Positions 3,362-22,002 of a DNA stretch of 32,816 nucleotides are shown here, piece after piece. Within the stretch, counting starts at the first letter, position 1; each line of letters opens with the position of its first letter. The notes beneath the pieces are model-generated. The model searched no databases, was not told where the DNA came from, and saw only the letters and a program-made list of their open reading frames with translations. Source of the DNA: an uncultured Gammaproteobacteria bacterium (GTDB lineage: Bacteria; Pseudomonadota; Gammaproteobacteria; Arenicellales; JAANXG01); NCBI GenBank assembly GCA_947259175.1, contig CAMYKW010000088.1, positions 1-32,816 on the forward strand. The letters are read 5' to 3'. Position numbers and translations under genes: made by a program.

Positions 3362-3994
3362 ATGGAGTCGTGGACCGAATACACGCGCCTGATTACCGCT
3401 TTATTGGTCATCCTGGATCCGTTTGCGGCCGTTCCGATATTCCTGGCGCTGACTAAAGACTACTCTACTATCGAGCGAGCACGGACGGGTTCCATTACCG
3501 CGTTTACCGTGGCGCTGGTGCTGGTCGTATCCGCTCTCACAGGAGAAACTCTGCTGCGATGGATGGGCACCAGTCTCGCCTCGTTCCGGGTGGGCGGGGG
3601 TATCGTCCTGCTGCTCATGTCGCTGTCGCTGCTGCGAGGTCAACCGGATCTGGTGCGCGCCACACCGACCGAGTCGCAAGAGGCGTTGTCGAAAACCTCT
3701 GTCGCGGTCGTGCCCCTTGCGATTCCACTGCTGGCGGGACCGGGAGCGATCAGCACCGTCATCATCGCGACCCATCGTTCCAATGCGGAATTCCACTGGC
3801 TGCTGGTGATTGGCTGCATCCTGCTGGTGAGCGGGATTTTGTGGCTGGTGCTGCGTGTCGCGTCGCGGATCTCAGACCTTCTGGGAACGATCGGCTTGAA
3901 TATCATCAATCGCCTGTTCGGCCTGATCCTCGCCGCCATCGCGATTGAAATCATGGCGAACGGCATGAAACAGCTGTTCCCGGGATTGAATTGA
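3362..3994 (+). CDS. MarC-family integral membrane protein
   Basis: This 210-residue protein has about six hydrophobic helices and the hallmarks of MarC/YhgN/YchE proteins: an N-terminal segment LLVILDPFAAVPIFLALT, the mid-region RVGGGIVLLLMSLSLL, and PLAIPLLAGPGAISTVI, the conserved PLA(I/M)P-x-GPG signature. The family is distantly related to LysE-type exporters; its substrate is unknown, and the old link to multiple antibiotic resistance is not supported experimentally. The ATG at 3362 is preferred over a TTG six bases upstream. No strong ribosome binding site is visible. It follows the MscS gene by 122 bp and converges on the ABC-like gene, with 6 bp between their stops. Confidence 0.92.
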   Translation: MESWTEYTRLITALLVILDPFAAVPIFLALTKDYSTIERARTGSITAFTVALVLVVSALTGETLLRWMGTSLASFRVGGGIVLLLMSLSLLRGQPDLVRATPTESQEALSKTSVAVVPLAIPLLAGPGAISTVIIATHRSNAEFHWLLVIGCILLVSGILWLVLRVASRISDLLGTIGLNIINRLFGLILAAIAIEIMANGMKQLFPGLN

Positions 3995-4000
3995 CTGCCG

Positions 4001-6508: not shown

Positions 6509-6588
6509 GTTGTTAGGCAGAACTAAATAGCAATAGCCGAGTTTCGATTGACGCGATCAGTATCGACGCGACGCATTGATATATTATT

Positions 6589-6609
6589 CCCGCGTTTGCG
6601 GGGTTTTTT
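6589..6609 (+). terminator. Short intrinsic terminator-like hairpin
   Basis: CCCGC, a GTTT loop and GCGGG are followed directly by GTTTTTT. The stem is only 5 bp but all GC, and the T-run is good. No plus-strand gene ends upstream, because the ABC-like gene reads away. It may end a short unannotated transcript or a leader of the Sel1 gene, or it may be fortuitous. Confidence 0.4.
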
Positions 6610-6662
6610 CCCCAACCGTTTCAACGTGTTATTTCACCCCGGGAAATACGCCCAAGGGCTCA

Positions 6663-6690
6663 CAGTTTACGTGAATTTTGGCGTAAACTG
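6663..6690. promoter_or_regulatory. 9-bp perfect inverted repeat just before the Sel1 gene
   Basis: CAGTTTACG and CGTAAACTG are separated by a 10-bp spacer and end 16 bp before the ATG at 6707. This is either an operator half-site pair or an mRNA stem-loop close to the start codon. No regulator can be named. Confidence 0.45.
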
Positions 6691-6706
6691 GCCCCCGTAA
6701 CAGCCT

Positions 6707-7441
6707 ATGTTCAGCACGTCTAACAGGATATTGACTATTGTGAGCGCACTCGCCGTCTTGCCCTGGGCGTGGGCGGAATCCGACCTGGAAAAAGAACAGC
6801 AGTTGTTGCGCGCCTTGTCGGCGGCGCGGGTCGGGGACTACCAACACGCACTGCCCATCTTCCGTCGCCTGGCCGAACAAGGCCACCCCAGCGCACAACA
6901 CAACATCGGCGTGATGTATGAAAATGGGCATGGCGTGTTTCGCAGTTATCGCGAAGCGTTTGTCTGGTATCTCAAGGCCGCTGAACAGGGCTATGCCAAA
7001 GCACAATACAATCTCGGCGTGATGTACGACGGTGACAAAGGCATCCCACGCAATGACGCGCAGGCGTTGTTCTGGTATCGAAAGGCTGCGGAACAAAATC
7101 TTGCCCCGGCCCAGTACAATCTGGGCATTATGTACGCCACCGGCCAGGGCACACCTCAAGATAACGAACAGGCGTTTGACTGGTATCGCCGTGCGGCGGA
7201 ACAGGACCACCCGCAAGCGCAGTTCAATCTGGCCGTCGTATACGCCACGGGTCGCGGTTTACCCCGGGACGACGTCCGCGCCTACAAGTGGTTCAGTCTT
7301 GCGGCACAACACGGCGCGATCCGCCAGGCAATCATCCATCGCGGCACCCTCGCCGAGCGCATGACCAACGCGCAAATCGAGGCGGCGCGGCGACTCGTCG
7401 AGGCGTGGCGCCCGGAGGGCGGCGGCCTGCCTCCGGAGTGA
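6707..7441 (+). CDS. Secreted Sel1-repeat (SLR) protein
   Basis: The 244-residue protein starts with a likely cleavable signal peptide (about residues 1-23, ending WAWA before ESD), so it is probably periplasmic. About four to five Sel1-like repeats of roughly 36 residues follow, visible as AEQGHPSAQHNIGVMYENG, AEQGYAKAQYNLGVMYDGD, AEQNLAPAQYNLGIMYATG and AEQDHPQAQFNLAVVYATG, with a final YKWFSLAA typical of the last repeat. The C-terminus has a Gly/Pro-rich tail. Sel1 repeats form alpha-solenoids that bind partner proteins; no specific role can be assigned. The start codon lacks a clear ribosome binding site, but the signal peptide begins right at this Met. A perfect inverted repeat lies just upstream and may regulate it. 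Confidence 0.9.
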   Translation: MFSTSNRILTIVSALAVLPWAWAESDLEKEQQLLRALSAARVGDYQHALPIFRRLAEQGHPSAQHNIGVMYENGHGVFRSYREAFVWYLKAAEQGYAKAQYNLGVMYDGDKGIPRNDAQALFWYRKAAEQNLAPAQYNLGIMYATGQGTPQDNEQAFDWYRRAAEQDHPQAQFNLAVVYATGRGLPRDDVRAYKWFSLAAQHGAIRQAIIHRGTLAERMTNAQIEAARRLVEAWRPEGGGLPPE

Positions 7442-7613
7442 TGGCATGACGTTGACGTATCCGGGACGATTTCCAAGCAGGGACCGGCGTCGTCTCTGGG
7501 TCGGCACGGTGCGCCTCTTGGAGACGGTCGAGCGGTTTCTTGACCCAGATCATCGCGGCTTGCGGCCAGTTTGATGAACATTGAGGTCCAGGCAGAAATT
7601 GGAGGGTTATCGA

Positions 7614-8087
7614 ATGCCGGTAAGAAAGCTGAAAGAATTTCTCGATGCCAATCAAGTTCAGTACGAAACCCTGACCCACCCCACCACCTATACTGCCCAA
7701 CACACCGCGGAATCCGCGCACATTCCGGTCAAGGAATTGGCCAAAACGGTAATGGTCAAACTAGACGGAAAAATGGCGATGGCCGTGGTGCCCACTTCGC
7801 AACGTGTGGATCTCGATCTGCTGCAGAAAGCTACGGGGGCGGCGAACATCGAGCTGGCATCTGAGAAGGAGTTCCAGGACATGTTTCCGGGATGCGAGGT
7901 CGGCGCAATGCCACCGTTCGGAAACCTTTACGGCATGGAAGTTTTTGTCTCGCCCACGCTGACGGAAGATGAGAGCATTGCATTCAACGCGGGATCACAC
8001 ACTGAATTGATCCGCCTTTCGTACAAGGAATACGCTCAATTGGTGTCGCCCGTGGTCGTCAATCTCTCCAGCAGCGAAGCCGGCTAG
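7614..8087 (+). CDS. YbaK/ProX-family aminoacyl-tRNA deacylase
   Basis: The start is ATG 7614, preceded by GGAGGG at 7601-7606; an upstream TTG in frame is less likely. The 157-residue protein consists of a single YbaK-type editing domain: an N-terminal helix (MPVRKLKEFLD), VKELAKTVMVKLDGKMAMAV with the conserved lysine of the KTx(V/L)xxxD motif, and the C-terminal GAMPPFG and AFNAGSHTELIRLS, matching the family's G(x)xxPxG and GxxxxxxxL elements. Such proteins hydrolyse misacylated tRNAs in trans (for example Cys-tRNA(Pro) or Ala-tRNA(Pro)). The substrate cannot be decided from sequence. It lies upstream of the ribosome-associated HPF-type gene on the same strand, a loose translation-related pairing. 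Confidence 0.9.
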   Translation: MPVRKLKEFLDANQVQYETLTHPTTYTAQHTAESAHIPVKELAKTVMVKLDGKMAMAVVPTSQRVDLDLLQKATGAANIELASEKEFQDMFPGCEVGAMPPFGNLYGMEVFVSPTLTEDESIAFNAGSHTELIRLSYKEYAQLVSPVVVNLSSSEAG

Positions 8088-8111
8088 AAATCATCGGTGA
8101 CGCCGATTTCT
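8086..8111 (+). terminator. Stem-loop overlapping the stop codon of the YbaK-type gene
   Basis: AGAAATC, a 2-nt bulge and CGG pair with CCGATTTCT at 8103-8111. The stem begins within the TAG stop codon. There is no T-run, so it is a weak terminator at best and might instead protect the mRNA 3' end. Confidence 0.3.
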
Positions 8112-8163
8112 GTTCAAGCTTTACACCGAATATCCAGTCCACTCTGATTAGAGGAGGTTTGCC

Positions 8164-8730
8164 GTGCAATCTCCGTTACAAATCTCATTTCGCCGCATGG
8201 GTCACTCCGACGCGATAGAGGCGAAGATTCGGAAACGAGCCCAGGAACTCGACAAATTCTGCGATCAGCTGATGAGCTGCCGGGTAGTGATTGAGCCGGC
8301 CCATAAACACAAACACAAAGGCAACCTTTATCAAGTGCGCATTGACGCAACCGTCCCGGGCAGGGAACTCGTGGTCACGCGAGAGCCGGACAAACATCAT
8401 GCACACGAAGACATTTATGTCTCTATACGCGACGCTTTCGACGCGATGCGCCGCCAGTTGCAGAATTACAATAGTATCCAAAGAGGAGATGTGAAATCTC
8501 ATGACGTGCCGCCGCATGGCCGCGTAACCGAGCTGCTGGGAGAAGACGGTTACGGGATCATTACTACTGCGGATGGGCGACAAATTTATTTCCACCGCAA
8601 TAGCGTAATCAACGCCGAGTTCGAGGACCTGAAACTGAGCGATGAAGTACGCTTTGCAGAGGAACAGGGAGAGAAAGGTCCCCGCGCGACCACCGTTTAC
8701 CGGGTTGGCAAACATCACGTCGTCGGATAG
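8164..8730 (+). CDS. HPF/RaiA-family ribosome-associated protein fused to a cold-shock domain
   Basis: The 188-residue protein starts at GTG 8164 with a strong AGGAGG at 8152-8157. Residues 1-105 form a hibernation-promoting-factor fold: ISFRRMGHSDAIEAKIRKRA, a middle His/Lys-rich strand (PAHKHKHKG) and EDIYVSIRDAFDAMRRQL. Residues 115-185 form a cold-shock/S1-like OB fold: GRVTELLGEDGYGIIT (RNP1-like) and IYFHRNSV (RNP2-like). HPF domains bind the decoding region of the 30S subunit; the cold-shock domain adds single-stranded nucleic-acid binding. The likely role is stress control of ribosomes or mRNA, and the gene differs from the standard single-domain HPF found next to rpoN. The fold assignment is secure; the physiological role is inferred. 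Confidence 0.9.
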   Translation: MQSPLQISFRRMGHSDAIEAKIRKRAQELDKFCDQLMSCRVVIEPAHKHKHKGNLYQVRIDATVPGRELVVTREPDKHHAHEDIYVSIRDAFDAMRRQLQNYNSIQRGDVKSHDVPPHGRVTELLGEDGYGIITTADGRQIYFHRNSVINAEFEDLKLSDEVRFAEEQGEKGPRATTVYRVGKHHVVG

Positions 8731-8964
8731 GTCAGAACAAAACCCGGGGCGGATCGCGTGCTTTTCATCGCTCGAGGTGCGGAAAAAGTGCGCGCCTGGA
8801 TATGGATCGTGGTACGTCGGTGCAGCGGAACCGTTTTCGCGCTCGTCTGCCGGCACCGATGATCGTGCCCTACCGTGACCACAGTCAATTACGCATTGCG
8901 CGCGTTCTCTTAGAATCAACACTTGTATGGTCAGACGCTCAATCACCGATGCCAGGAGGGAAAC

Positions 8965-9204
8965 ATGACCAAACCTGTCGCAGTCCCCGAGGTAGGCGCG
9001 CCCGATCCTGAACTGAAGACTTCACCTATCTTCGATAATGAAACAGAGGAATGGGAGTACGAGGATTTGGAGCTCGAGTCCGGCGTCTGTTATTTCAATG
9101 ACGCCACTTTTCCGCTCGGTGAGCACGTATCCAGCGGTGGCGAGTTATTGTGCTGCATGGAACGCGGGGTGTGGGTACGCGTCGGGTCATCCCAGGTGAA
9201 ATAG
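8965..9204 (+). CDS. Small DUF1496-like protein
   Basis: This 79-residue protein starts at ATG 8965, well supported by AGGAGGG at 8954-8960. The N-terminal half is acidic and probably disordered (NETEEWEYEDLELE). The C-terminal half reads GVCYFNDATFPLGEHVSSGG followed by ELLCCMERGVWV, which matches the pattern of DUF1496 proteins such as E. coli YnjH: Cys-Tyr, then (Y/F)xxGxxV, then L-x-Cys and a final Trp. No signal peptide is seen, unlike YnjH, so it may be cytoplasmic. The function is unknown. The gap before it (8731-8964) holds no other supported gene. Confidence 0.7.
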   Translation: MTKPVAVPEVGAPDPELKTSPIFDNETEEWEYEDLELESGVCYFNDATFPLGEHVSSGGELLCCMERGVWVRVGSSQVK

Positions 9205-9226
9205 CGCTATCAACCCCTTAGCGGAT

Positions 9227-9243
9227 CCGCCGCGCCGCGGCGG
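9227..9243. other. GC-rich dyad downstream of the DUF1496-like gene
   Basis: CCGCCGCG, C, CGCGGCGG forms a near-continuous palindrome 23 bp after the stop codon. It lacks a T-run, so it is at most a rho-dependent pause or 3'-end structure. The remaining bases to 9497 hold nothing I can name. Confidence 0.25.
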
Positions 9244-9497
9244 CGAGACCGGGGTGTTCAGGCTCGTTTCGATCACGGGCCGCATTGAGTCCTGACGGCG
9301 CTCGAACGCGCCTGGTGGTGCAGCGAACACAATGGCCGGGAATTCACCCCATCGAACATCCAGTGGTCACAACAATTCCTGGCATTTTTGCAAAGTTGGA
9401 CTATGCTCGATAGATGTCAATTTTTTGACTAAAAACACCGCCTCCAGTTTGTTATAAAAGGATGGTCGAAATCGCAACTATACCTGGGAGACGACTG

Positions 9498-9791
9498 ATG
9501 CAAGTAACCACAAAATCGGGTTCGAGCTCACAATCCAACATTACCACCGGCGCCGGTCGTGCTGCGCAAACCGGTGCAAGAAAGGGTGCTAAGAAACCGG
9601 ATGTCAAAACCCGATCACGCTCCACGAAGACGTCCGTCAAAGCGGTCATCAGCGGCGCACAGCGTCATCAATTGATATCCGAAGCCGCTTACTTCAAAGC
9701 CGAACAGCGTGGTTTTGAGGTCGGCAACGCAGTGCAAGACTGGCTGGAGGCGGAAGCCCACATCGACGCGATGTATCGAATTGAAGGCTAG
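9498..9791 (+). CDS. DUF2934-domain small basic protein
   Basis: From ATG 9498, with GGGAG at 9486-9490, the protein is 97 residues. An in-frame ATG at 9462 has a poorly placed AAAGG and is less likely. Residues 1-55 are low-complexity, rich in Lys, Arg, Ser, Thr and Gly, and look like a basic disordered tail that could touch nucleic acid. Residues 56-97 carry the DUF2934 motif: HQLISEAAYFKAEQRGF, then AVQDWLEAEAHID. The domain is common in proteobacteria, sometimes with stress genes, and has no known function. The gene stands alone with 176 bp to glgC. Confidence 0.82.
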   Translation: MQVTTKSGSSSQSNITTGAGRAAQTGARKGAKKPDVKTRSRSTKTSVKAVISGAQRHQLISEAAYFKAEQRGFEVGNAVQDWLEAEAHIDAMYRIEG

Positions 9792-9967
9792 CTCGGATCG
9801 TGCACGGGGGAACCTGTGTACAGATTGCGGGCTGGATAATGACAAGAATAACTTGACGCGCTAGCGGCGATCGTCCGTTTGTCGGGCGGCACCCGGCCGC
9901 CAAGATTTGTTAGTTTGATGGTTTCATCGATAATCAATTGCGCGGCGTGTGCCGATCGTTGCACGGG

Positions 9968-11287
9968 ATGAATCACCTGGCGAATGTCACGCCGCGGCTT
10001 CGCGGTCGCGCGGAGAAACCGGTTCAACAGCGACGCAAGCTGGATCGCTTTAAATCCGCGTTCCACGATCCGGTGCGTGACACCCTCGCTCTGGTTCTCG
10101 CGGGCGGACGCGGTTCGCGATTAAAGAACCTTACCGATTGGCGGGTCAAACCCGCGGTCCCGTTCGGCGGAAAATTCCGCATTATCGATTTCACCTTGTC
10201 GAACTGCCTCAATTCCGGACTCCGGCACATCGGGGTGCTCACTCAATACAAGGCGCACTCCCTGATCCAGCACCTGCAACAGGGTTGGAGCTTTCTTAAA
10301 GGCGAATTCAATGAGTACATCGAGCTCATTCCGGCGCAGCAACGCGTTCTGGAATCCTGGTACACCGGCACCGCCGATGCGGTGTTCCAGAACATCGATA
10401 TTATTCGTCACCACAATCCGGATCGGGTTTTGATTCTCGCCGGTGATCACATCTACAAAGCCGATTACGGCATGATGATTCAGTTCCATTTGGAGCATGA
10501 CGCCGACCTCACGGTGGGTTGCGTGGACGTGCCGATAGAAAACGCCGGTCATTTCGGCATCATGGCCATCGATGATGACGATCGGGTGATTCGATTCCGG
10601 GAAAAACCCAACCAACCGGAACCCGTACCGGGCCGAAGCGATGTCGCGCTGGCGTCCATGGGCATCTATGTGTTCAACACTGAATTTTTGTTCGATCAAC
10701 TGAACAAGGACGCCCGGACACCGGGGTCCGAACATGACTTTGGAAAGAATATCATCCCCTCCTTGATTGACGAGCATAACGTCATTGCGTATCCGATCTC
10801 GCGCATCCAGGACGGCGCATACTGGCGGGACGTGGGCACCGTTGACGCCTATTACCAGGCCAATCTGGAACTGATCGGGGTGACGCCGGAGCTGAATCTT
10901 TACGATGAGAACTGGCCGATCTGGACATACCAGGCGCAGTTGCCTCCGGCGAAATTCGTATTCGATGACGACCTCAGGCGGGGCACGGCGGTGGATTCCA
11001 TGGTATCCGGAGGCTGCATCATCTCCGGCGCGCTGGTCAGGCACTCTATTTTGTTCTCCAGCGTGCGCGTCAACTCCTTCTCACTGGTACAAGATTCCAT
11101 CGTACTTCCCGAAGTGGATATCGGACGCGATTGCGTAATCAAGAACGCCATCATCGAAAAAGGCTGCCGCCTCCCCGCGGGAACCAAGATCGGTGTCGAC
11201 CCGATAGCCGACGCCGAACACTTCTACGTGACCCCCGGCGGTGTTACCCTGGTCACGCCGGCCATGCTCGGGCAGACCGTACGCTAA
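9968..11287 (+). CDS. glgC: Glucose-1-phosphate adenylyltransferase (ADP-glucose pyrophosphorylase)
   Basis: This enzyme makes ADP-glucose from ATP and glucose-1-phosphate, the committed step of bacterial glycogen synthesis. From ATG 9968 it has 439 residues, the usual length. The N-terminal nucleotidyltransferase motif [13 protein letters not shown] is followed by [20 protein letters not shown] and [33 protein letters not shown] and the [13 protein letters not shown] metal-binding region are intact, and the sugar-binding segment [10 protein letters not shown] is present. The C-terminal third carries the hexapeptide-type left-handed beta helix ([25 protein letters not shown]). An in-frame TTG at 9938 is a possible earlier start. 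No other glycogen gene is in the window. Confidence 0.97.
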
Positions 11288-11455
11288 ACATCCGGCGGCG
11301 GGCGCGAGGGTCGCCGGTCGGGCATGTCTTGCGCCGGACAGCCGGCACCGCAACCACCAACGGCGGGAACGGCCGCGGCGTTCGCATCCGTCGCGGCTGG
11401 CCGCGCAATTTGCGCTATCATCCCGGGTGGGCACATACATAGAACTTGATATCGC

Positions 11456-12139
11456 ATGCATCCCGCGTGGAAAGCTAAAATAACCGTGAACATCGGTATC
11501 AAAAGATTTATCGACCGCCTGGCGCTGATGTTAGCGCTTCTCGGCACGGCTTGCAGTCCGGCGAACGTGGTCAGCCAGCAGGTGTTGACGGGGGGCGCGT
11601 TACTGAAAACCCTGCAGTCCGGGGGAAACAACATCTACTTCCGCCATGCGCAGACCGACTGGTCGCAAAGCGACCACATTGAGCGCGCCGGGGACTGGAC
11701 GAGTTGCGACGCGTCGCGCGTCCGCCAGCTGTCAGACGAGGGACGCCGCACGGCGAAGGCGGTAGGGGCGCACATGCGGACGTTGCGTATTCCGGTGAGT
11801 AAAGTTCTGGCCAGTCCCTATTGCCGCACCGTGGAGACCGCCGAGTTATTGGATCTGGGAGCCGTCGGCACGACGACTGACATCATGAATCTGAGGGTGG
11901 CGGAGTATTTCGGCGGGCGAGAAGCCATTTTGAAACGCGCCCGTCTGCGCCTCGCCATGACGCCGCCGCCCGGCAGCAATATCGTGCTCGTCGCCCACGG
12001 AAACGTCGCGCGTGACGCGACCGACGTGTATCCCGGGGAGGCCGAGGCCGTTGTGTTCCGCGCACGCGGGGACGGTGATTTTACCTTTATCGGCCGCCTC
12101 ACTCCGGAACAGTGGGCGGAGCTGGCGCGACCCAACTAG
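11456..12139 (+). CDS. Exported histidine-phosphatase-family protein
   Basis: The protein has 227 residues. The N-terminus has a basic stretch, a hydrophobic segment LALMLALLGTAC and then SPAN; the Cys suggests a lipoprotein, though LGTAC is a non-ideal lipobox. The catalytic core follows: YFRHAQTDWS (RH motif with the nucleophilic His, Ala in place of the usual Gly), ASPYCRTVETAELL with the phosphate-binding Arg, and LVAHGN with the second catalytic His. The fold is that of phosphoglycerate-mutase-like phosphatases; the substrate is unknown. Its TAG stop (12137-12139) is also the first three bases of a small transposable element; the base after the element is G, so the gene ended at the same TAG before the insertion. 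Confidence 0.85.
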   Translation: MHPAWKAKITVNIGIKRFIDRLALMLALLGTACSPANVVSQQVLTGGALLKTLQSGGNNIYFRHAQTDWSQSDHIERAGDWTSCDASRVRQLSDEGRRTAKAVGAHMRTLRIPVSKVLASPYCRTVETAELLDLGAVGTTTDIMNLRVAEYFGGREAILKRARLRLAMTPPPGSNIVLVAHGNVARDATDVYPGEAEAVVFRARGDGDFTFIGRLTPEQWAELARPN

Positions 12140-12329
12140 CCCGCATTTCTCACCAGGATCCCGGATGCTGGCGCAGGACTCGTGCAGCTGCGCGCTGCGC
12201 CTGGAGCGAGACCCATAGCGAGCTATGGGTCGAGCGAAGGCCAAGCGCAGGTGTGCGAGAACCGGTATATTGCCTTATACATCAATGTCAACCGTCAACC
12301 TGGCGCCGCCTGGTGAGAAATGCGGGCTA
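12137..12329 (+). mobile_element. Small CTAG-targeted MITE, copy A (193 bp)
   Basis: Perfect terminal inverted repeats GCCCGCATTTCTCACCAGG are bounded by TA on both sides within CTAG (12136-12139 and 12327-12330). There is no room for a transposase. The left arm (about 12158-12246) is shared with copies B and C and contains a 10-bp stem GACCCATAGC/GCTATGGGTC around a GA spacer. The right arm differs from the other copies except for GGCGCCG next to the terminal repeat. The TA duplication and CTAG target match IS630-type (Tc1/mariner-like) insertion. It lies between the histidine phosphatase and the UxaA-type gene. Confidence 0.88.
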
Positions 12330-12483
12330 GCGCCATTCACTACCGGGAACCCATGCCGCCGGCGGGTGCATCGCGGCCGCAGATCATTTTCGCGGCCCAA
12401 CGCTGATTCCGGGTCGGACTTCTGCTAACCTCTAAACTATCTATCCAGCCCGCCGTTCCGGTGTCCACAAAGGAGAGAAGTCG

Positions 12484-14010
12484 ATGGTCTCCCACGCCGC
12501 AATTCGTCTCAGCCCCAACGACAACGTGGCCGTTGCGCTGCAGGATATCGCCAAGGGCGAAGGCGTTGCACCGGCCGCCATTACCGCTCGCGCCCCGATT
12601 CCACGCGGCCACAAGCTTGCCATCGAGGCTGTTGATAAGGACGCACCGGTGATGAAGTATGGTCAGATTATCGGTTTCGCATCCGAACACATCGCACCCG
12701 GCGCCCATGTGCACGTACACAACGTGTGTATGGGGGATTTCGAGCGGGATTACGCCTTCGGTGTAGACGCGACCGAGACCGCCATGGTGGCCGAGGCCGA
12801 GCGCGCCACCTTCGAAGGATTCGTGCGGGATGACGGACGGGTCGGTACACGAAACTACATCGGTATCGTCACCTCCGTGAACTGCTCGGCCACAGTCGCA
12901 CGACATATCGCGCGGGAGGTGGAGCAGCGCGGCATGTTGGATGGGTACGCCAATATTGACGGCGTGGTGCCGATCGTCCATGGCGCCGGCTGCTGCGTCG
13001 CCTCCGACGACGAGGGCTTCCGCATGCTGCAGCGAACCGTGTGGGGCCACGCCCGGCATCCCAACTTTGCGGCGGTGTTGATGCTGGGACTGGGTTGCGA
13101 ATCCAACCAGATTCCCCTCATGGTCAAGGCCGCGGGACAACCCCCGGGAGAAACCTTCCACTACACGACCATCCAGAAACAAGGCGGCACCCGTAAAACC
13201 ATAGAACAGGCGATCGCCTGGTTCACAAAGGCGTTGCCCCGCGCCAACGCGAAGCGGCGTCAGGCCGTGCCGGTGTCGGAGCTGACCGTGGCGCTGCAAT
13301 GTGGCGGGTCGGACGGCTACTCGGGCATCAGCGCGAATCCCGCCCTGGGTCTGGCCGTCGACACCCTGGTGCGCCATGGCGGCTCGGGGGTGTTGGCGGA
13401 AACGCCGGAGATCTACGGCGCCGAACATCTGCTCACGCGCCGCGCCGCGTCCCGCGAAATCGGTGAGAAACTGATCGAGCGTATCCGCTGGTGGGAGGAT
13501 TACACCGCGAGGAATCACGGCAACATGAACAACAACCCCACGCCGGGAAACAAAGCCGGCGGCTTGACCACCATTCTCGAAAAATCCCTGGGCGCGGTGG
13601 CCAAAGGCGGATCTACCAAGCTGGTCGAAGTGTATCGATATGCGGAGCCGATCACCGCCAAAGGCTTCGTGTTCATGGACAGTCCCGGTTATGACCCCTG
13701 CTCGATCACCGGCGAGGTGGCCTCGGGCTGCAACCTGGTGTGTTTCACCACCGGGCGCGGCTCGGTGTACGGCAACAAACCGGTTCCGAGCGTCAAAATG
13801 TCCACCAATACACCGATATATGAACATATGGCCGAGGACATGGATGTCAATTGCGGCACCATCATCGACGGCACCGAGACCCTGGAACAGGTCGGTGAAC
13901 GCATATTCAAGAAAATGCTCGCCGTAGCCAGCGGCGAGAAGACCAAGTCGGAGGAACTTGGATTCGGCGACGCCGAATTCGTTCCCTGGCAGGTTAGCGC
14001 GCAAATGTAG
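12484..14010 (+). CDS. uxaA: UxaA-type sugar acid dehydratase (altronate/galactarate family)
   Basis: This 508-residue enzyme starts at ATG 12484 with AGGAGA at 12471-12476. Residues 1-90 form the SAF domain (LSPNDNVAVALQDIAKGE, RGHKLAIEAV, APGAHVHVHN), closely resembling E. coli UxaA. The main body has FVRDDGRVGTRNYIGIVTSV, HGAGCC and CGGSDGYSGISANPALG, then MDSPGYDPCSITGEVASGCN and GRGSVYGNKPVPSVKM, motifs of the iron-dependent altronate/galactarate dehydratases. The usual reaction is dehydration of D-altronate to 2-keto-3-deoxygluconate. No uronate pathway gene is nearby, so the real substrate may be another hexonate or aldarate. It is followed by a LysE-type exporter 58 bp downstream. Confidence 0.9.
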   Translation: MVSHAAIRLSPNDNVAVALQDIAKGEGVAPAAITARAPIPRGHKLAIEAVDKDAPVMKYGQIIGFASEHIAPGAHVHVHNVCMGDFERDYAFGVDATETAMVAEAERATFEGFVRDDGRVGTRNYIGIVTSVNCSATVARHIAREVEQRGMLDGYANIDGVVPIVHGAGCCVASDDEGFRMLQRTVWGHARHPNFAAVLMLGLGCESNQIPLMVKAAGQPPGETFHYTTIQKQGGTRKTIEQAIAWFTKALPRANAKRRQAVPVSELTVALQCGGSDGYSGISANPALGLAVDTLVRHGGSGVLAETPEIYGAEHLLTRRAASREIGEKLIERIRWWEDYTARNHGNMNNNPTPGNKAGGLTTILEKSLGAVAKGGSTKLVEVYRYAEPITAKGFVFMDSPGYDPCSITGEVASGCNLVCFTTGRGSVYGNKPVPSVKMSTNTPIYEHMAEDMDVNCGTIIDGTETLEQVGERIFKKMLAVASGEKTKSEELGFGDAEFVPWQVSAQM

Positions 14011-14068: not shown

Positions 14069-14710
14069 TTGATTGATCCATCGACTATCGCCGTTTTTGT
14101 CGCCGCCTCCTTCGTGCTGTTGATTACACCGGGGCCGGCCGTGTTGTTTATCGTCACGCGCAGCCTCGACGGCGGCAGCCATGCGGGCGTCGCCGCCACC
14201 TTGGGCGTCGCCACCGGAACGCTTGTTCACGTCACCGCCGCCGCCCTCGGGTTGTCTACGCTTCTGGTCACCTCATCGTCGGCGTTTAACGTGGTCAAAT
14301 ACCTGGGCGCCGCGTACCTTATTTACCTCGGTCTGCGCTCACTCACCACGCGAGAATCCCCCATACCCTCCGGCACACCGGCCGCGAAGTCCTTACGCAG
14401 GATCTGGGTGGAAGGAATTATGTTGCAGTTACTCAATCCCAAAGTAGCATTGTTCCTGTTCGCGCTGTTGCCGCAGTTTATCGATCCGTCAAGAGGACAG
14501 CCGGCGCTGCAGATGTTTGTCCTCGGGCTGGTGTTGTTGACACTGGGCGTCGTCACCGACGGCGCCTACGCGCTGGGGTCCGGCGCGGCCCGCAAATGGT
14601 TGCGGCACCCGACGGTGCTTCGCGGTCAACGCCGGCTCTCCGGCGGGGTATTGATTGCGCTGGGTATCGCCGCTGCGGTGTCGGACGCCGGCGGCAGGGG
14701 CAAAACCTAG
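14069..14710 (+). CDS. LysE/RhtB-family amino acid exporter
   Basis: The 213-residue inner-membrane protein has about six helices and the family signature near the N-terminus: FVLLITPGPAVLFIVTRSL, then GVAATLGVATGTLVHVTAAA with its small-residue repeats, and KYLGAAYLIYLGLRSL. A later segment LLNPKVALFLFALLPQFID matches the conserved NPK-x-x-LFF-x-x-x-PQF motif. Relatives export lysine, homoserine, threonine, leucine or other small molecules. The reading frame opens with TTG at 14069; no ATG occurs nearby upstream in frame. It sits on the same strand as the UxaA-type gene, but a shared role is not obvious. Confidence 0.92.
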   Translation: MIDPSTIAVFVAASFVLLITPGPAVLFIVTRSLDGGSHAGVAATLGVATGTLVHVTAAALGLSTLLVTSSSAFNVVKYLGAAYLIYLGLRSLTTRESPIPSGTPAAKSLRRIWVEGIMLQLLNPKVALFLFALLPQFIDPSRGQPALQMFVLGLVLLTLGVVTDGAYALGSGAARKWLRHPTVLRGQRRLSGGVLIALGIAAAVSDAGGRGKT

Positions 14711-14925
14711 CCCGCCCGAGCACCCCATCCTCGCCCCTCGCCGGGCTTATTTTTCGTCTATTTATCCATGGGTTAAGCAGGTTCCGCAAAAAGCTGCTAG
14801 AACTATAAATAGGAACTGCATCAACAGCCGGTGAGGATCGAACTTGGTACGAGATAAACGCGAACAAGCAGTAGGCGTGGGCCACGGGTCCCCCCTCGCC
14901 ATGTCGTTAGTCAGGGAGGTGACCG

Positions 14926-16716
14926 ATGCGTTGGTATGAGCGGCTCAATGTACGGCTGATGGCGCCCATACTCATTGTGCTTCTGGTTTCGATTTCACTT
15001 TCGCTGGGCTGGCTGTTCAAACATCAGGAGGCGCAGGTTATCGATCGCGCGCGAGACGAGGCTCTTCTGATCAATCAGATCGTCAAATCGGCGATACGCA
15101 ACCAGATGCTGAAAAACGTCAATGACACGGCTCAGGATACGATCGCCACCATTCAGGCCCGTACTCAGCTCTCTGATATATCAGTGATCTCCAAGAACGG
15201 CGTTGTCCATCTATCCTCGAATCCCGCCAAGATCGGCACCACCGTCGACTGGACGAATCCCACCTGCTCCCGTTGTCATTCCTCCAAGGAGCGGCCCATG
15301 GCCCAGGCTACTTTCTTGAATACGGAAGAGTCCAATACGTTGCGATCTATGAATCTTATCGAAAACGAAGTTGCATGCCACGAGTGTCACGGGAAAGATG
15401 CCAAATACCTGGGTGTCATGATCGTGGATCAAGACGTCAGGAGAGACATCAACCGTGTAACGCAAGTTCAGAAATCTCTCATCGGGGCCGGTTCGATCAC
15501 TCTGGCCGCGATTTTCGGACTCATAATCATCATTGTTCAGCGACTCGTACAGCGACCCGTGGACCAGTTGCTCGTAGGCATACGGGGAATACGCAATCGA
15601 GAGTTCGACACACGGATCGATACCAAAGTTGGCGGTGAATTGGGGGAACTCGCCGGCGCGTTCAATGAAATGGTCGTCGATACCCGACACTATGTACAAG
15701 AAATCAATAGCAAGACTTTCGAGCTCTCGACGTTGTACTCAATTGTCGAGCGCGTCACCCGCAGCATCGATCTCAACCAGCTGCGGAATATCATTCTGGA
15801 TATCATCATGGATTCTTTTGCCAACGTTGAGCTGGGAGCCATCGTATTTGAGACCCAGGATAAGGACAGACTCCAGTTGAACCTGCGCAACGCGGGTGAT
15901 GCGGAGACTGTCTGCTTGGATTATGGCGACCGGTCCGATCAAGTTCAGGATCTGTTCGAATTCGAATTCCTGCAGCGCTGGTTACACGGGGACATCAACG
16001 AGGTCACCCACCTCGATCAGAGAAATGCGATTCTCGTGCCACTGCGGTCAGAGGGCAAGGACACGGGACTGCTGTACGCACGAAAACGGGCCGGCGAGTC
16101 GTTTTCCCAGGGCGAGACTCAACTGCTCGACGCGCTGCGCACGCACGTGTCGGTAGCGCTGGAAAATGCACGCCTTTATTCCCTTGCCATCACCGACGAG
16201 CTGACCCAGCTCTATACCATGCGTTACTTCCAGCACGCGATGCAGGAACAGACCACAAAATACATCCGATACGGGCAGAAGCATGCGCTGCTGATGCTCG
16301 ATCTGGATGACTTCAAGCAGATCAACGACGAGCACGGCCACCCGGCCGGTGACGCCGTGCTGTCGCGGATCGCAAAGGTCCTGCTTCGCTGCGTCAGAGA
16401 TATCGACATCATATCCCGCTACGGCGGTGAGGAGTTCGCTGTAATCCTGCCGGAAACCGACGAGAAAGCCGCGCGGGTGGTGGCCGAACGGATCCGTTCA
16501 GAAACCGAAAACGAACAGATCAAGATTGGCGACAAAACCCTGCAGTGCACGCTCAGCATCGGCATCGCATGCTGTCCGGCGCATGCCACCGTCGTGCGCG
16601 AGATCGTCGAAAAGGCGGATACCGCCCTTTACCGAGCGAAGGCGCTGGGAAAGAACCGAGCGTTCTCCGCGTCGGCGCTGGGTGATGATCAAAGAGAATC
16701 GCTTGCCATGACCTGA
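14926..16716 (+). CDS. Membrane diguanylate cyclase with periplasmic diheme (two CxxCH) sensor
   Basis: The 596-residue protein starts at ATG 14926, preceded by AGGGAGGTGA, a near-perfect Shine-Dalgarno. Order: TM helix (about 11-31), periplasmic domain (32-185), second TM (186-208), HAMP (about 205-260), GAF-like domain (about 270-418), GGDEF domain (about 420-585). The periplasmic domain carries CSRCH (114-118) and CHECH (151-155), two c-type heme attachment motifs. The GGDEF core is GGEEF (500-504) with the product-inhibition site RDID (491-494) five residues before it, and metal-binding LDLDDFKQIN, so it should be active in making c-di-GMP. Heme-bearing periplasmic sensors are known from Geobacter chemoreceptors; here one is coupled to c-di-GMP synthesis, probably sensing redox state, oxygen, NO or another heme ligand (inferred). 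Confidence 0.93.
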   Translation: MRWYERLNVRLMAPILIVLLVSISLSLGWLFKHQEAQVIDRARDEALLINQIVKSAIRNQMLKNVNDTAQDTIATIQARTQLSDISVISKNGVVHLSSNPAKIGTTVDWTNPTCSRCHSSKERPMAQATFLNTEESNTLRSMNLIENEVACHECHGKDAKYLGVMIVDQDVRRDINRVTQVQKSLIGAGSITLAAIFGLIIIIVQRLVQRPVDQLLVGIRGIRNREFDTRIDTKVGGELGELAGAFNEMVVDTRHYVQEINSKTFELSTLYSIVERVTRSIDLNQLRNIILDIIMDSFANVELGAIVFETQDKDRLQLNLRNAGDAETVCLDYGDRSDQVQDLFEFEFLQRWLHGDINEVTHLDQRNAILVPLRSEGKDTGLLYARKRAGESFSQGETQLLDALRTHVSVALENARLYSLAITDELTQLYTMRYFQHAMQEQTTKYIRYGQKHALLMLDLDDFKQINDEHGHPAGDAVLSRIAKVLLRCVRDIDIISRYGGEEFAVILPETDEKAARVVAERIRSETENEQIKIGDKTLQCTLSIGIACCPAHATVVREIVEKADTALYRAKALGKNRAFSASALGDDQRESLAMT

Positions 16717-16739
16717 ACCGCAGGGCGGCGGTTGTTTTC
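16716..16739 (+). terminator. Possible weak terminator after the diheme cyclase
   Basis: AACCGC and GCGGTT form a 6-bp stem with a 6-nt loop, followed by GTTTTC. It begins at the last base of the cyclase stop codon and lies between two convergent genes, where a terminator is expected. Confidence 0.4.
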
Positions 16740-16768
16740 AACCGATCGGCTTTGCTTGAACAGGAGGC

Positions 16769-17599
16769 TCAGGCGGGGACGGCGAGGACCGGACAGTTTG
16801 CGGCGCGCAGAATTCTTTCGGTGGTGCTGCCGCGCAAGGCGTCGAGAAATCCGTCATGCCCCTGGGTGGTCAGTACAATGAGATCCGCGAGCATATTCGT
16901 GGCCACGCTCAGGATTTCGTTGACCACGTCGCCGCGACGAACGGTGGACGTCCAGGACCAACGCTTATCTTCGGGCAGTTGCGGCTCCGGCGCGTTGAAC
17001 GTGTTACCGATATGGACTTTGGTGAAGCGCACACCCCGGGGACACCCCAGCAGGTCCGCCAGCTTAACCGCGGTGTAAATCGCCTGTTGCGGGTCCGGTT
17101 CGCGGTCCACCGCTATTAACACCCGCCGCAGGGTTGCGTTCCCGGTGTCATGGTCGACAAATCCGCGCACACCATGGGGCAGAAACAGGGTCTTGGTGTA
17201 TGAGTCGCGGGCGATAGGCTCCGAGACGGCCTTGTTTACCCATCGCGGGCGAATGTCCTGACGGCTGTTGGCCAACACGATCAGGCACGCAGGTTTTTCG
17301 ACCAACCGGCGCACGATGGCCTGCACGGGGTCTGGATCGGTCAATTGAATTTTCTTTACGCGTAGTCCGTTGCTGATGTCATCCGGCACCGGGCCGTCGG
17401 GCGGGATCAAGCGCCAGTGTATGAGTTTATTCCGCGTGCTGGGGAAACTCCCTCTGTCGATGGGTGTGGGATTCACATGCGCCACCGTGAGGGTGATCTC
17501 CCCTGCGAGGGCGATTTTCAGGGCGTGTTCGTACGCAATTTCGCTGGCATCGGAAAAATCCGACGGATGAAATACGTGTTTGAAATCCAAATCGCGCAT
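16769..17599 (-). CDS. Tandem UspA universal stress protein
   Basis: From ATG 17599 the protein has 276 residues and two Usp domains. The first begins FKHVFHPSDFSDASEIAYEHAL, the typical Usp opening; the second begins RRVLIAVDREPDPQQAIYTA and ends with ADLIVLTTQGHDGFLDALRG followed by GSTTERILRAANCPVLAVPA. The latter is the conserved GxxGxxxxxxxGS(T/V)-type ATP-binding tail in modified form: the first Gly pair is QGHDG, and GSTTERIL is intact. A GTG at 17635 in the same frame gives a 12-residue longer form, but the domain starts directly after the ATG. Tandem Usp proteins act in stress tolerance. It lies between two diguanylate cyclases and converges with the first. Confidence 0.9.
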   Translation of the reverse strand: MRDLDFKHVFHPSDFSDASEIAYEHALKIALAGEITLTVAHVNPTPIDRGSFPSTRNKLIHWRLIPPDGPVPDDISNGLRVKKIQLTDPDPVQAIVRRLVEKPACLIVLANSRQDIRPRWVNKAVSEPIARDSYTKTLFLPHGVRGFVDHDTGNATLRRVLIAVDREPDPQQAIYTAVKLADLLGCPRGVRFTKVHIGNTFNAPEPQLPEDKRWSWTSTVRRGDVVNEILSVATNMLADLIVLTTQGHDGFLDALRGSTTERILRAANCPVLAVPA

Positions 17600-18088
17600 G
17601 CGGGTAAACGGTCGTTCAGGCACCCGGATCAACACCGATACCTAACAGTCTAGACCAAACCGGAGACATCCTCCGGTCACGAACCAACGCGTTGTCGTCC
17701 ACCGCCTCGCCGCGGGGGTGGGCGCCGATGCCGGACTTGGTACGGCTATCCCCCGATCAGGCCCCGTCGCGCCCAAACCACGCGCTGTCGACCGGACCGG
17801 CGGCCGCATTCGAGGCGCGGAAAAACCAGGAAAAGAATTTGTCCTTGATCGCGCTGGCTGCGGCGCCGATCCCTTCGCCACACCTAATGGCAGCCAAAAA
17901 ATACCGTCAAAAAATACCTTCCATCGGCCACAAAATGCCATACGTCCGCTGCGCACGGGTAAACCCGTATGCCCCCGGGGGCCTGGCGCTTTTTATTCCT
18001 ATCTTGGTCTATGTTTGCTAGTACACGGATCTATGCGCGGGTAAACCTCGTTTGCCGGCGGCGGCGAGCCACCCCGGGGGAATGCATT
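17600..18088. other. Divergent intergenic region with palindromes
   Basis: No gene is supported in this stretch, which separates the Usp gene from the second diguanylate cyclase. It holds a 6-2-6 palindrome ACGGGT-AA-ACCCGT (17955-17968), a 12-bp palindrome GCCCCCGGGGGC (17971-17982) followed by a CTTTTTATT tract, and a direct repeat TCAAAAAATACC/CCAAAAAATACC near 17890-17915. The last two could form a terminator, or the first two could be operator sites. I looked for a GEMM-type c-di-GMP riboswitch core and did not find one. Confidence 0.4.
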
Positions 18089-19381
18089 TTGAGCACGCAG
18101 CAAGCACCACAAGAAACAACCAGCAAAGACGCCAATCGCAAACCCGCACGGAATCTAGCGGTCCGCTACGTGTTCGCCCTGAGCCTGGTGGCGGCGCTGA
18201 TCGTGGCGGGGCAGGTCCTGGTGCAATTGTCTCTGATGCAGCAAGAGCGCGACGCGCGTACGATCAACATCGCCGGCCGGCAGCGCATGTTGTCGCAAAG
18301 AATCCATGTCCACGTGCTTACCGCTGAGCGTGAGTCAGACGTCCAGCGGTTACGGGCGCGCGCGACCACGTTGGCCATGGATCTCGACCTCTGGCAACGA
18401 TCCCATGCGGGGCTGCGGCATGGCGACGTTGAACTGGGACTGCCCGGCAACAACAGCCCCGAAACCCAGGCGCTGTTTGCGAAACTCGAACCGCATTTTG
18501 CGGCCATAAAAACCACCGCGGACCGGGTGGTTGTGATAGGCGAAGCGGCGAACGCCACGCCCATCGACTTGCGGCCACAGATCGGCACGCTGGTTCTTCA
18601 TGTCGACCGCTTCCTGGAGACGATGGATCGAATCGTCCACGTCTACGAGCAGGAGGCTGCGGCCCGTGTGGCGAAACTTCAGCGGATCGAAGTGCTGTTG
18701 ATGGTAACTGCACTCCTGGTCTTGGCGCTCGAAGCGCTGTTCATATTCCGCCCCGCGGTGAGACGCATTCGAGCCGCCATCTCGGAGCTGAACCGGGTCA
18801 GCGGCGTCTTCCAACAACTGTCGCTGCGCGACGATTTGACGGGGGTGCCAAACCGCCGCTGTTTTGATGTGCTCTACGAACGGGAGATTCGGCGGGCGAT
18901 GCGAAGCTGTCAGCCACTTTCGCTGATCATGATCGATGTCAACAACTTCAAGGAATTCAACGACAATTTGGGGCACCAGTTCGGCGATACCTGCCTCAGT
19001 AAAATCGCCCGCACCCTACGTCGAGGCGTACTCCGTCCCGGCGACCTGGTCGCGCGTTTCGGAGGAGACGAGTTTGTGGTGTTGTTGCCCAACACGGACA
19101 TGCATGGAGCTCAGCACGTTGCCAGCGCCATGCGCCGGGCCGTGGATAAGCTCAAAATCGAACACGACTCGCCCCATGTCCCGCGGTCTCTTTCTATCAG
19201 CACCGGCGTCGCGAGCGCCACGCTCACACCAACGACCGCCATGCCCGTCGAACTGTTGCGGACAGCCGACGCTGCGCTGTTTCGCGCCAAACGTTCGCGC
19301 ACCGTCCACATCCCGGACACGTCTTGGAACGCGGCTGAGCTGGCGGTAGATCAACTCGGCGCCGGCCGCGTTTTCAGCTAA
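18089..19381 (+). CDS. Membrane diguanylate cyclase with PilJ/NarX-type N-terminal sensor
   Basis: The likely start is TTG 18089, with GGGGG at 18076-18080; the frame is open to 17969, but that extension is unlike a protein. From TTG it has 430 residues: TM helix (about 26-50), a periplasmic four-helix sensor with NIAGRQRMLSQR (60-71), the conserved motif of PilJ/NarX-type type IV pilus chemosensor N-terminal domains, a second TM (about 202-221), then GGDEF. The active site is GGDEF (325-329) with inhibition site RPGD (316-319), and LIMIDVNNFKEFND holds the metal Asp. It should make c-di-GMP. NarX-type domains bind nitrate or nitrite in some proteins, but the ligand here is unknown. Confidence 0.88.
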   Translation: MSTQQAPQETTSKDANRKPARNLAVRYVFALSLVAALIVAGQVLVQLSLMQQERDARTINIAGRQRMLSQRIHVHVLTAERESDVQRLRARATTLAMDLDLWQRSHAGLRHGDVELGLPGNNSPETQALFAKLEPHFAAIKTTADRVVVIGEAANATPIDLRPQIGTLVLHVDRFLETMDRIVHVYEQEAAARVAKLQRIEVLLMVTALLVLALEALFIFRPAVRRIRAAISELNRVSGVFQQLSLRDDLTGVPNRRCFDVLYEREIRRAMRSCQPLSLIMIDVNNFKEFNDNLGHQFGDTCLSKIARTLRRGVLRPGDLVARFGGDEFVVLLPNTDMHGAQHVASAMRRAVDKLKIEHDSPHVPRSLSISTGVASATLTPTTAMPVELLRTADAALFRAKRSRTVHIPDTSWNAAELAVDQLGAGRVFS

Positions 19382-20157: not shown

Positions 20158-22002
20158 CTAGTAGTCCAAAGAGTCTTCGGTGAATTGCGGTTGCGGCGTT
20201 TTACCGATGATGCGCTTCAGCAAATGATTCATAGTCACCGGATCGTTATCGAATCCACCGTGGGACTCGCTGTTGGACGCCGCACCGCCGGAGTCCCCGC
20301 CGTCGCTGTATGCAAAACCGAGCCGCGGGATCCCGTGTTGCTCGACGATCCGGCTGTGTCTCTGCATCCCCAGCAGCGGCGCGTCGCGCACGTCTTCGAA
20401 CGCCCGCGACACCAGATACAGCAACGACTTGCGATAGACATGGACGACGTGGTCGTCGCGTTCCCAATCGTCGTTTAGATTGTATACCAGCATGTCGTCG
20501 ACTCCGGTGTCCGCCGCGTCCGCCACCAGCAGGGGATAATAATGACTGTTGAATAAATCCACCGTCGCCGCCGGAGCCAGCAACGAGCAGCTCGCGACCC
20601 GCTGTACCGGGGCGATGCGCTCCAGGGCATCCAAGAAAAACGCCATCAAGATGGCGCCGGTGCTGTGCCCAGCCACGTGGAGCTTCATGCCGGTATTCCC
20701 GGCCCGCCACAATGCGTCCAGAAATGCGGCCAACACCTGGGCGCCGTCGTTGCTGCCCAGGAACGGCAATGACGCGCCGCGCTTCATCTCCCGCCACAGC
20801 GCCCGGCCGGGCACCCGCGTGGCGGCTTCGATCAAGCGGTCGGTCCAGTCGGTGAAGCCCGCCGCCCGTTCCTCCACGGCCTGTTCCTTGCCCAGCACCA
20901 CGTCCTTGATCTCCTCCATCACCCCGGTGTCGTACATGAAGTGATACGGATACACGCGGTTGTCCTTGAACGTTTCTTTCATCGCGGCGATGCGTTGCGC
21001 CGCGTCCTTGGGGCTGTTCAGGCCACCGTGGGCGTAGAACAGCAGGTGGTCGTAGCCGTTGCTGTTGGCAACCAGTTCGGCGGTGGCGTGCACGTCTTCG
21101 AGGTTGCTCCAGTAGCGCCCGTGGTCATGAAAGCGGCCGTCGTCCAGGTGCACGAAGTGCCCGGCGATTTCGGCGCGCGGGGGGTTGCGTTCGAAAAACC
21201 CCGCCTTGCCGCGCCCGGCCTCGGAAATTCCGGACACCGGCAGGTGCCAGATCTGGGGCGTGGGCAACGCCAGGCGCAACACCCAGGCATCCATGACGTT
21301 CGCCTGCCAGTCCTCATAGGTCCAAAGCGCCACGCCGTTGTTGCCCCAGCGCCGGCCCCACGAGTTTTGGATCCAGAAACCGGTTTTGTTGTAGCCGACG
21401 ATGGCAAACGCATGACCGCCCAAATCGTCTTCTTCGAGCTTGATCACCCCGGTTTTCTTATTGACCCCGTCCCACCCCGAATGCACTTTGGCTGAACAAT
21501 AGATCGCACCGGCTTCGTTGAGCGCGGCATGATAGTCCGACAGACGCACACCGAGGCGATAATAGGCGCCGAGGGTGTTGTTGCGCGCATCCTTGGCCGC
21601 GGCCACGGTCAGCGCGCCCGGATCTCCGTCTTCGTATCGCCAATGCCGCTCGCGGCACACCCCCATGTTGTACCAGCCCTGGATGGCGCCGCGGCAACTG
21701 GATCCCTGGTACTGTTCGCCGCGCCACTCGTCGTGCTTCTTGGCCATCTCATACAGCATGCGCGGGCTCACCGCGTAGCGGTTGCCGCGGCGCTGATTGA
21801 GCAGATTGATCACCGCCGCTAAGCCGAACCCGGAGCAGGACCCCTCCTCGCCCTGATCCACAACCTTCAAAGACCGGGGTTTGGGGATGGACCGTTTGAG
21901 CTGGATGAGGGAGGGCTCGTAGGTCCAGTCGCGGAAATCCGGAACATCGGCAAACGCGGTCAGGGCGAAACGCCCCAGCTTGGGAGGCTCAACGGTGGCC
22001 AT
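20158..22002 (-). CDS. Papain-like C1 peptidase fused to an alpha/beta hydrolase
   Basis: This 614-residue protein joins two enzymes. Residues 1-245 form a papain-fold C1 peptidase: VVDQGEEGSCSGFG with oxyanion Gln50 and nucleophile Cys56, GGHAFAIVGY with His197, and FWIQNSWGRRWG with Asn213. No propeptide or signal peptide precedes it. Residues about 300-600 form an alpha/beta hydrolase: LLFYAHGGLN (oxyanion-hole HGG, 325-327) and LHVAGHSTGAIL with nucleophile Ser447 in GHSTG. The catalytic acid and His cannot be assigned with confidence. Substrates are unknown. It directly precedes the GH108 muramidase on the same strand, with stop and start 12 bp apart, so three hydrolases (peptide bond, ester or amide, glycan) are made from one transcript. 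The copy B element lies 153 bp upstream of its start. Confidence 0.85.
   Translation of the reverse strand: MATVEPPKLGRFALTAFADVPDFRDWTYEPSLIQLKRSIPKPRSLKVVDQGEEGSCSGFGLAAVINLLNQRRGNRYAVSPRMLYEMAKKHDEWRGEQYQGSSCRGAIQGWYNMGVCRERHWRYEDGDPGALTVAAAKDARNNTLGAYYRLGVRLSDYHAALNEAGAIYCSAKVHSGWDGVNKKTGVIKLEEDDLGGHAFAIVGYNKTGFWIQNSWGRRWGNNGVALWTYEDWQANVMDAWVLRLALPTPQIWHLPVSGISEAGRGKAGFFERNPPRAEIAGHFVHLDDGRFHDHGRYWSNLEDVHATAELVANSNGYDHLLFYAHGGLNSPKDAAQRIAAMKETFKDNRVYPYHFMYDTGVMEEIKDVVLGKEQAVEERAAGFTDWTDRLIEAATRVPGRALWREMKRGASLPFLGSNDGAQVLAAFLDALWRAGNTGMKLHVAGHSTGAILMAFFLDALERIAPVQRVASCSLLAPAATVDLFNSHYYPLLVADAADTGVDDMLVYNLNDDWERDDHVVHVYRKSLLYLVSRAFEDVRDAPLLGMQRHSRIVEQHGIPRLGFAYSDGGDSGGAASNSESHGGFDNDPVTMNHLLKRIIGKTPQPQFTEDSLDY

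Follow-up and report, generated by a model that had tools for sequence, protein, structure and literature searches.

The window, that is, the whole stretch of DNA that was analysed (32,816 nucleotides, from an uncultured Gammaproteobacteria bacterium), carries at 14926-16716 a gene for a putative membrane-bound diguanylate cyclase whose extracytoplasmic sensor domain bears two CxxCH motifs. The gene and its parts are laid out as follows.

14926..16716, + strand: whole gene, predicted two-heme Cache - HAMP - GAF-like - GGDEF diguanylate cyclase, 596 aa (ORF translation and Pfam)
14950..15018, + strand: TM1, residues about 9-31 (hydropathy scan)
15013..15483, + strand: periplasmic single-Cache sensor domain, residues 30-186, ~155 aa (AF2, Foldseek, VIA)
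15106..15108, + strand: Met61, predicted distal axial ligand of heme 2 (aligned with Met60 of GSU0935)
15265..15279, + strand: heme site 1, CSRCH, residues 114-118 (motif scan; orthologues; complete in 17/36 aligned domains)
15349..15351, + strand: Met142, candidate distal ligand of heme 1, a prediction (co-occurrence with site 1; 6/6 orthologues)
15376..15390, + strand: heme site 2, CHECH, residues 151-155 (motif scan; orthologues; equivalent of C140-C143-H144 of GSU0935)
15478..15540, + strand: TM2, residues about 185-205 (hydropathy scan)
15541..15675, + strand: HAMP linker, residues 206-250 (Pfam PF00672, 31.0 bits, cut-off 25)
15769..16164, + strand: GAF-like domain, residues 282-413 (PF13185, GAF_2, 24.6 bits, below the cut-off of 28.6)
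16186..16659, + strand: GGDEF diguanylate cyclase domain, residues 421-578 (PF00990, 154.8 bits, cut-off 23.8)
16396..16407, + strand: inhibition site RxxD (RDID), residues 491-494 (motif scan of the protein)
16423..16437, + strand: active-site signature GGEEF, residues 500-504 (motif scan of the protein)

Hydrophobic 19-residue windows cover residues 6-33 and 183-212, with both CxxCH motifs in between; the first-pass annotation, which had set the two motifs between two membrane helices, agrees with this in positions and hydropathy. It had also described a HAMP-GAF-GGDEF protein with intact active and inhibition sites. Pfam recognizes the HAMP and GGDEF domains, GGEEF and RDID are both present, and the GAF domain, below cut-off in the window protein, is matched by GAF_2 and GAF_3 at E<=0.01 in 6/6 orthologues. 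Besides GGEEF, the GGDEF domain contains LDLDDF, with an Asp that we take to be the metal-binding one. On these features, the window protein is predicted to make c-di-GMP. A Pfam scan found no MCP domain in it, and the output is GGDEF, not chemoreceptor signalling. A promoter scan of 14600-16850 found none, and shuffled sequences gave as many terminator-like sites as the two detected there. A full-length AF2 model built from six orthologues was set aside (mean pLDDT 43.6, pTM 0.30).

A chance origin of the heme motifs was rejected on the strength of orthologue conservation and of 20,000 residue shuffles, which yielded two CxxCH motifs 0 times and at least one 64 times. The first-pass annotation had proposed a search for homologues with both motifs, and such proteins exist: both are invariant in all six orthologues (window protein included), of which the other five are 68-75% identical to the window protein. 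In one of the six, L016, a contig edge cuts the protein just inside the GGDEF domain, and the I-site Arg is Lys. Wider comparison relied on an alignment of 36 homologous sensor domains (A2), whose counts do not describe a random sample because its rows were picked by similarity: site 2 is complete in 36/36 (CxxCH in 29, CX4CH in 7), the Met61 position is Met in 36/36, and site 1 is complete in 17, present as CxxC without the His in 6 and in neither form in 13. The Met142 position is Met in 14 of the 17 site-1-positive domains (missing from 3) and in 0 of the 19 site-1-negative ones, a pattern to be read as a lead and not as a test, because 13 of those 14 fall into just two groups of closely related orthologues. 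Between the membrane segments, no His or Met other than His118, His155, Met61 and Met142 is invariant across the six cyclase orthologues. We predict that His155/Met61 is the ligand pair of heme 2 and, less surely, that His118/Met142 is the pair of heme 1; both CxxCH sites probably bind covalent c-type heme. In kinase relatives L040, L042, L044, L045, L046 and L049, site 1 is CxxC without the His, as if it had decayed there or served another metal or a disulfide.

An AF2 model of the sensor domain built from A2 (pLDDT 82.6, pTM 0.77) contains two N-terminal helices and five strands. Each heme site sits on a short helix, site 1 in the stretch that links strands 2 and 3, where confidence is lowest (about 62-67), and site 2 in the one that links strands 4 and 5 (helix 120-126, between strands 108-117 and 132-141, in model numbering). 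Foldseek and VIA match the model to the solved folds of WalK/YycG, DctB, CitA, DcuS and GSU0935, WalK 4ywz giving a VIA Z of 13.8 and an rmsd of 2.8 over 135 residues. As modelled, the sensor is a single Cache domain. When the A2 profile was compared with PDB sequences, it matched GSU0935 (3b42, E 9.1e-11) and GSU0582 (3b47, E 4.8e-10); roadblock dynein light chains, at E about 0.002 in the same search, were taken as noise. In the profile alignment, Met61 aligns with chain residue 26 of 3b42, whose CQSCH lies at 106-110. Since this motif is C140-C143-H144 in the numbering of PMC8396549, residue 26 is Met60, described there as an axial heme ligand. In structure comparison, 3b42 ranks third in Foldseek but with an rmsd of 13.8, and neither 3b42 nor 3b47 is among the 50 VIA matches listed; the claim of kinship with GSU0935 therefore rests on the profile match. 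The poor structural match may arise because GSU0935 is a swapped dimer (PMC8396549). The sensor domain scores below the cut-off of PF21563 (24.6 bits, cut-off 27), which matches 27/36 A2 domains at E<=0.01 and whose cut-off is passed by another two-heme cyclase, L055 (29.0). PF11845, the sCache_heme family, matches 20/36 A2 domains at E<=0.01 and the window sensor at 17.1 bits; the curated cut-off is 24.1, and the window protein is for this reason not filed under that family.

A quick tree of 65 domains joined 17/17 two-heme rows to the kinases, apart from 28 one-heme rows, with 100% SH-aLRT, and long branches were flagged at this two-heme/one-heme split. The tree was rebuilt from 57 rows, eight long or doubtful ones having been left out. 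In an AU test on these rows, a single group of all cyclase-type rows, window protein included, was not rejected (p 0.516), and the tree that holds them as one group scored 0.42 log units higher. An origin of the sensor from the kinase branch was dropped in view of the AU result and the long branches. One-heme cyclase-type rows group together in both trees (100% and 99% SH-aLRT), and on the 65-domain tree site 1 needs at least 3 changes, the shuffled mean being 15.3.

The distribution of relatives was followed through Pseudomonadota genomes. The six orthologues lie in 6 of 109 searched genomes of the order, comprising five of the six listed genomes of the genus and one more in the family. Among 369 genomes drawn from the class, at least 22 match the sensor profile. 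The 21 loci read there besides the window genome encode 15 one-motif proteins with a kinase-like C-terminus, two two-heme kinases (L039 and L041), one two-heme GGDEF protein with no GAF match (L055, in G357) and three one-motif GGDEF-type proteins (L057-L059); outputs were assigned by Pfam for L039, L043, L055, L057 and L058, while for the others a signature or the tail sequence served. At least 81 of 398 genomes drawn from the phylum match the profile. Thirty loci were read, among them the kinase of the window genome itself; each of the remaining 29 has a single motif, with outputs of GGDEF in 21, histidine kinase in four, MCP in two and no assignment in two. A second heme on a cyclase is an unusual element in these samples. 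A separate 185-aa ORF with both heme motifs (L035/L131, G005:C137) ends soon past the sensor and resembles the sensor part of a NarL-type kinase of G017; an ORF with four CxxCH motifs lies nearby.

The cyclase is flanked by glgC, a phosphatase gene, an altronate dehydratase family gene, LysE, Usp and a PilJ-GGDEF gene. This order is shared with G001, G003 and G005 (established partly by BLAST, partly by eye) and is absent in G002, which is of the same genus and whose contig ends nearby, and in G007; because it is not kept in these two, we do not use the flanking genes as operon evidence. A comparison of the window with all five genomes revealed no conserved respiratory neighbour of the cyclase. 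Past a Usp gene, 17969-19381 encodes a second diguanylate cyclase with a PilJ domain (PF13675, 56.2 bits); its position next to the window cyclase is conserved in G001, G003 and G005. This PilJ domain weakly matches 6gcv, a solved chemotaxis transducer that we take to be McpN (E 0.0063), and NarQ (E 0.26). The PilJ domain of McpN binds nitrate (PMC6381276). From such resemblance, the second cyclase is a possible nitrate-sensing partner. Farther along the window, the one domain that Pfam recognizes over cut-off in the 614-aa product of 20158-22002 is a papain-family peptidase domain (PF00112, 38.4 bits), and 25352-27598 encodes a sulfate permease-STAS protein with an extra cyclic-nucleotide-binding domain.

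Elsewhere in the window genome there are four matches over cut-off to PF01578 (cytochrome c assembly), a copper nitrite reductase (440 bits, cut-off 296) and aa3- and cbb3-type oxidases. A single NirS match scores 24.0 bits, or 30.9 with its neighbours (cut-off 25.5), and no NCBIfam model matched a third heme-copper oxidase candidate (563 aa), possibly a nitric oxide reductase, at 1e-10. Related sensors recur in the same genome. A two-heme Cache kinase with a CX4CH site 2 (L066, G000:C25:18000-36000, 3970-9267) neighbours a sigma-54 regulator, a nine-motif cytochrome and a cytochrome b561. A cluster of four c-di-GMP-type genes (L065, G000:C9:114000-132000, 6570-13283) encodes a GGDEF-EAL protein with one CxxCH, GEDEF replacing GGDEF and a PF11845 score of 20.5 bits (below cut-off), together with two GGDEF proteins and an HD protein with one CxxCH, the sensor part of which matches no Pfam family at 0.001. 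A stand-alone PF11845 protein scores 107 bits. At related-kinase loci, an ORF with five to nine CxxCH motifs lies nearby in 6/9 cases (L066, L074, L075, L076, L078, L081) and was not found in the 8-15 kb stretches of the other three (L077, L079, L082). The multi-CxxCH ORF of L074 stands beside a DMSO-reductase-like molybdoenzyme that is below its NCBIfam cut-off (587.8 of 777.7), and on a Rhodobacter plasmid the gene of a one-heme relative lies next to a molybdopterin oxidoreductase set. As the cyclase itself has no conserved respiratory neighbour, these contexts bear on it indirectly. Proteins rich in GMSGM repeats occur near the kinases at L074-L077, with molybdoenzyme-like genes in three of these four loci.

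Taking this evidence together, we give somewhat better than even chances to the reading that the window protein is a one-component membrane diguanylate cyclase whose periplasmic Cache domain reads the periplasmic redox state through two c-type hemes. Heme 2 would be held by Cys151 and Cys154 with His155 as proximal ligand, its sixth ligand being Met61 on the long N-terminal helix that continues TM1. Reduction would keep Met61 on the iron, and oxidation (or NO or CO) would free it; the resulting shift could move the helices and, through TM2 and HAMP, reach the GAF domain and the GGDEF dimer, so altering c-di-GMP output, which the I-site would limit. Heme 1, on Cys114 and Cys117 with His118 as proximal and possibly Met142 as distal ligand, would be inserted between Cache strands 2 and 3 as a second redox centre, and may either pass electrons on to heme 2 from respiratory cytochromes or alter the heme 2 potential; an electron relay would require the hemes to be about 14 A apart or less. 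We infer both that redox state is the signal and the direction of control. A more specific version, in which heme 1 (His118/Met142) is the electron port and heme 2 (His155/Met61) the switch of a two-centre receptor that senses periplasmic electron flow and not a dissolved ligand, is tentative, and we hold it rather unlikely in this full form. Under it, since one-CxxCH sensors sit on an EAL and an HD enzyme in the same cell, c-di-GMP would be both made and degraded according to heme redox state.

The redox reading draws on the invariance of both motifs and of the four His and Met residues in 6/6 orthologues, on the profile kinship to GSU0935 and GSU0582, whose Met60 switching is reportedly redox-driven (PMC8396549), on the Cache fold in a good model together with the PF01578 matches in the genome, and on the multi-CxxCH ORFs at six of the nine kinase loci and the molybdopterin oxidoreductase set beside the Rhodobacter plasmid relative. 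Weighing against it are the want of a conserved respiratory neighbour, the three kinase loci with no multi-CxxCH ORF and the low score at L074, as well as the Met142 gaps, the close-orthologue sets and a model that is weakest at site 1. Signalling-linked heme-Cache domains, moreover, are reported to act as NO sensors (PMC12889525), and the copper nitrite reductase of the genome would make NO. These last points feed the main rival, in which NO (or CO) displaces Met61 on heme 2 and thereby switches the cyclase, heme 1 being structural or keeping heme 2 reduced. One signalling-linked heme-Cache protein is described as binding NO tightly and forming no stable oxy-complex (PMC12889525), NO and CO bind GSU0582 and GSU0935 in place of Met60 (PMC8396549), and the nearby PilJ cyclase, with its weak likeness to 6gcv and NarQ, counts on the same side. 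Yet none of the scanned window genes next to the cyclase is specific to NO, several kinase relatives lie near multiheme cytochromes or molybdoenzymes, and NO binding would need no second heme. We regard NO sensing as possible, if on the unlikely side, and redox sensing as most likely. The first-pass annotation had named redox or gas control, and homology to GSU0935 and GSU0582 (PMC8396549) makes this its best reading still.

Two other accounts leave the hemes a lesser part. The hemes might be bound and not be the switch, the real input coming from a small ligand that binds in the Cache pocket or through the GAF domain in the cytoplasm; the fold indeed closely resembles that of Cache domains that bind ligands, CitA and DcuS among them, and a GAF-like domain is placed between HAMP and GGDEF. 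Retention of site 2 and Met61 in all 36 domains, across kinase and cyclase outputs, is what would be expected if heme were the working centre, and makes this account improbable. Still further down the scale, and very improbable in our judgement, is that one or both motifs carry no heme, site 1 for example being a metal site or a remnant. The six A2 relatives that keep CxxC without the His indicate that the site can exist without c-heme ligation, but the window protein and all five orthologues have both CxxCH motifs complete, the motifs lie on the periplasmic side, and the genome has cytochrome c assembly matches.

If redox sensing holds, the protein would be a direct, one-protein link from periplasmic redox state to c-di-GMP. 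Whether the cue is redox state or nitric oxide, the cell probably adjusts its attachment to it, through a presumed effect on biofilm. The two candidate His/Met pairs offer a clear structural handle on the contribution of a second heme to a Cache sensor, and the window genome provides a natural set for comparison: a two-heme cyclase, a two-heme kinase, one-CxxCH EAL and HD proteins and a stand-alone PF11845 protein.

Coupling of heme to c-di-GMP is not new, because heme-Cache fusions to GGDEF and EAL enzymes are already in print. The first-pass annotation had assigned heme-bearing periplasmic sensors mainly to Geobacter chemoreceptors; this is too narrow, as a 2026 preprint (PMC12889525) describes one-heme Cache domains of the heme-c type in different bacterial phyla, where histidine kinases, MCPs and GGDEF/EAL enzymes are their fusion partners and one signalling-linked member binds NO. 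The excerpted main text of that preprint contains no mention of two-heme Cache domains. A 2022 review of c-di-GMP stimuli (PMC8846402) covers heme, flavin, hemerythrin and disulfide sensors, and its excerpted text does not contain the terms c-type or cytochrome; titles and abstract openings of open-licence PMC papers yielded no paper on a two-heme Cache cyclase. Close counterparts are GSU0935 and GSU0582 (class 40H chemoreceptors, 3b42/3b47, PF21563), for which redox-linked Met60 switching and potentials of -156 and -251 mV are reported (PMC8396549). They share with the window protein a Cache/PAS-like fold, the heme motif at site 2 and the Met60 equivalent; they have one heme and chemoreceptor output, whereas the window protein has a second heme site, a GGDEF output and a score below the PF21563 cut-off. 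The sCache_heme domains (DUF3365/Tll0287, PF11845) are likewise single Cache domains with CXXCH on a helical insert between late strands and with fusions to c-di-GMP enzymes, but carry one CXXCH per domain (PMC12889525), where the window domain has two and lies below the PF11845 cut-off. PMC8396549 lists 12 signal transducers of G. sulfurreducens that contain CX2-4CH motifs, one or two each; of these, GSU0591 and GSU0599 have two motifs and GSU2622, a HAMP/GAF/HD-GYP protein, has the HAMP-GAF middle. The three are described there as cytochrome c family, two-component and HD-GYP proteins, and none is named as a cyclase. A further counterpart is the two-heme Cache histidine kinase of the window genome (G000:C25, L031), which has the same sensor arrangement, the site 1 CxxCH and Met at the 142 position, but a CX4CH site 2, a histidine kinase output and a sigma-54 response regulator alongside, in place of the CxxCH and GGDEF of the window protein. 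The window protein thus joins a sensor of known type, here in a two-heme form, to an output of known type.
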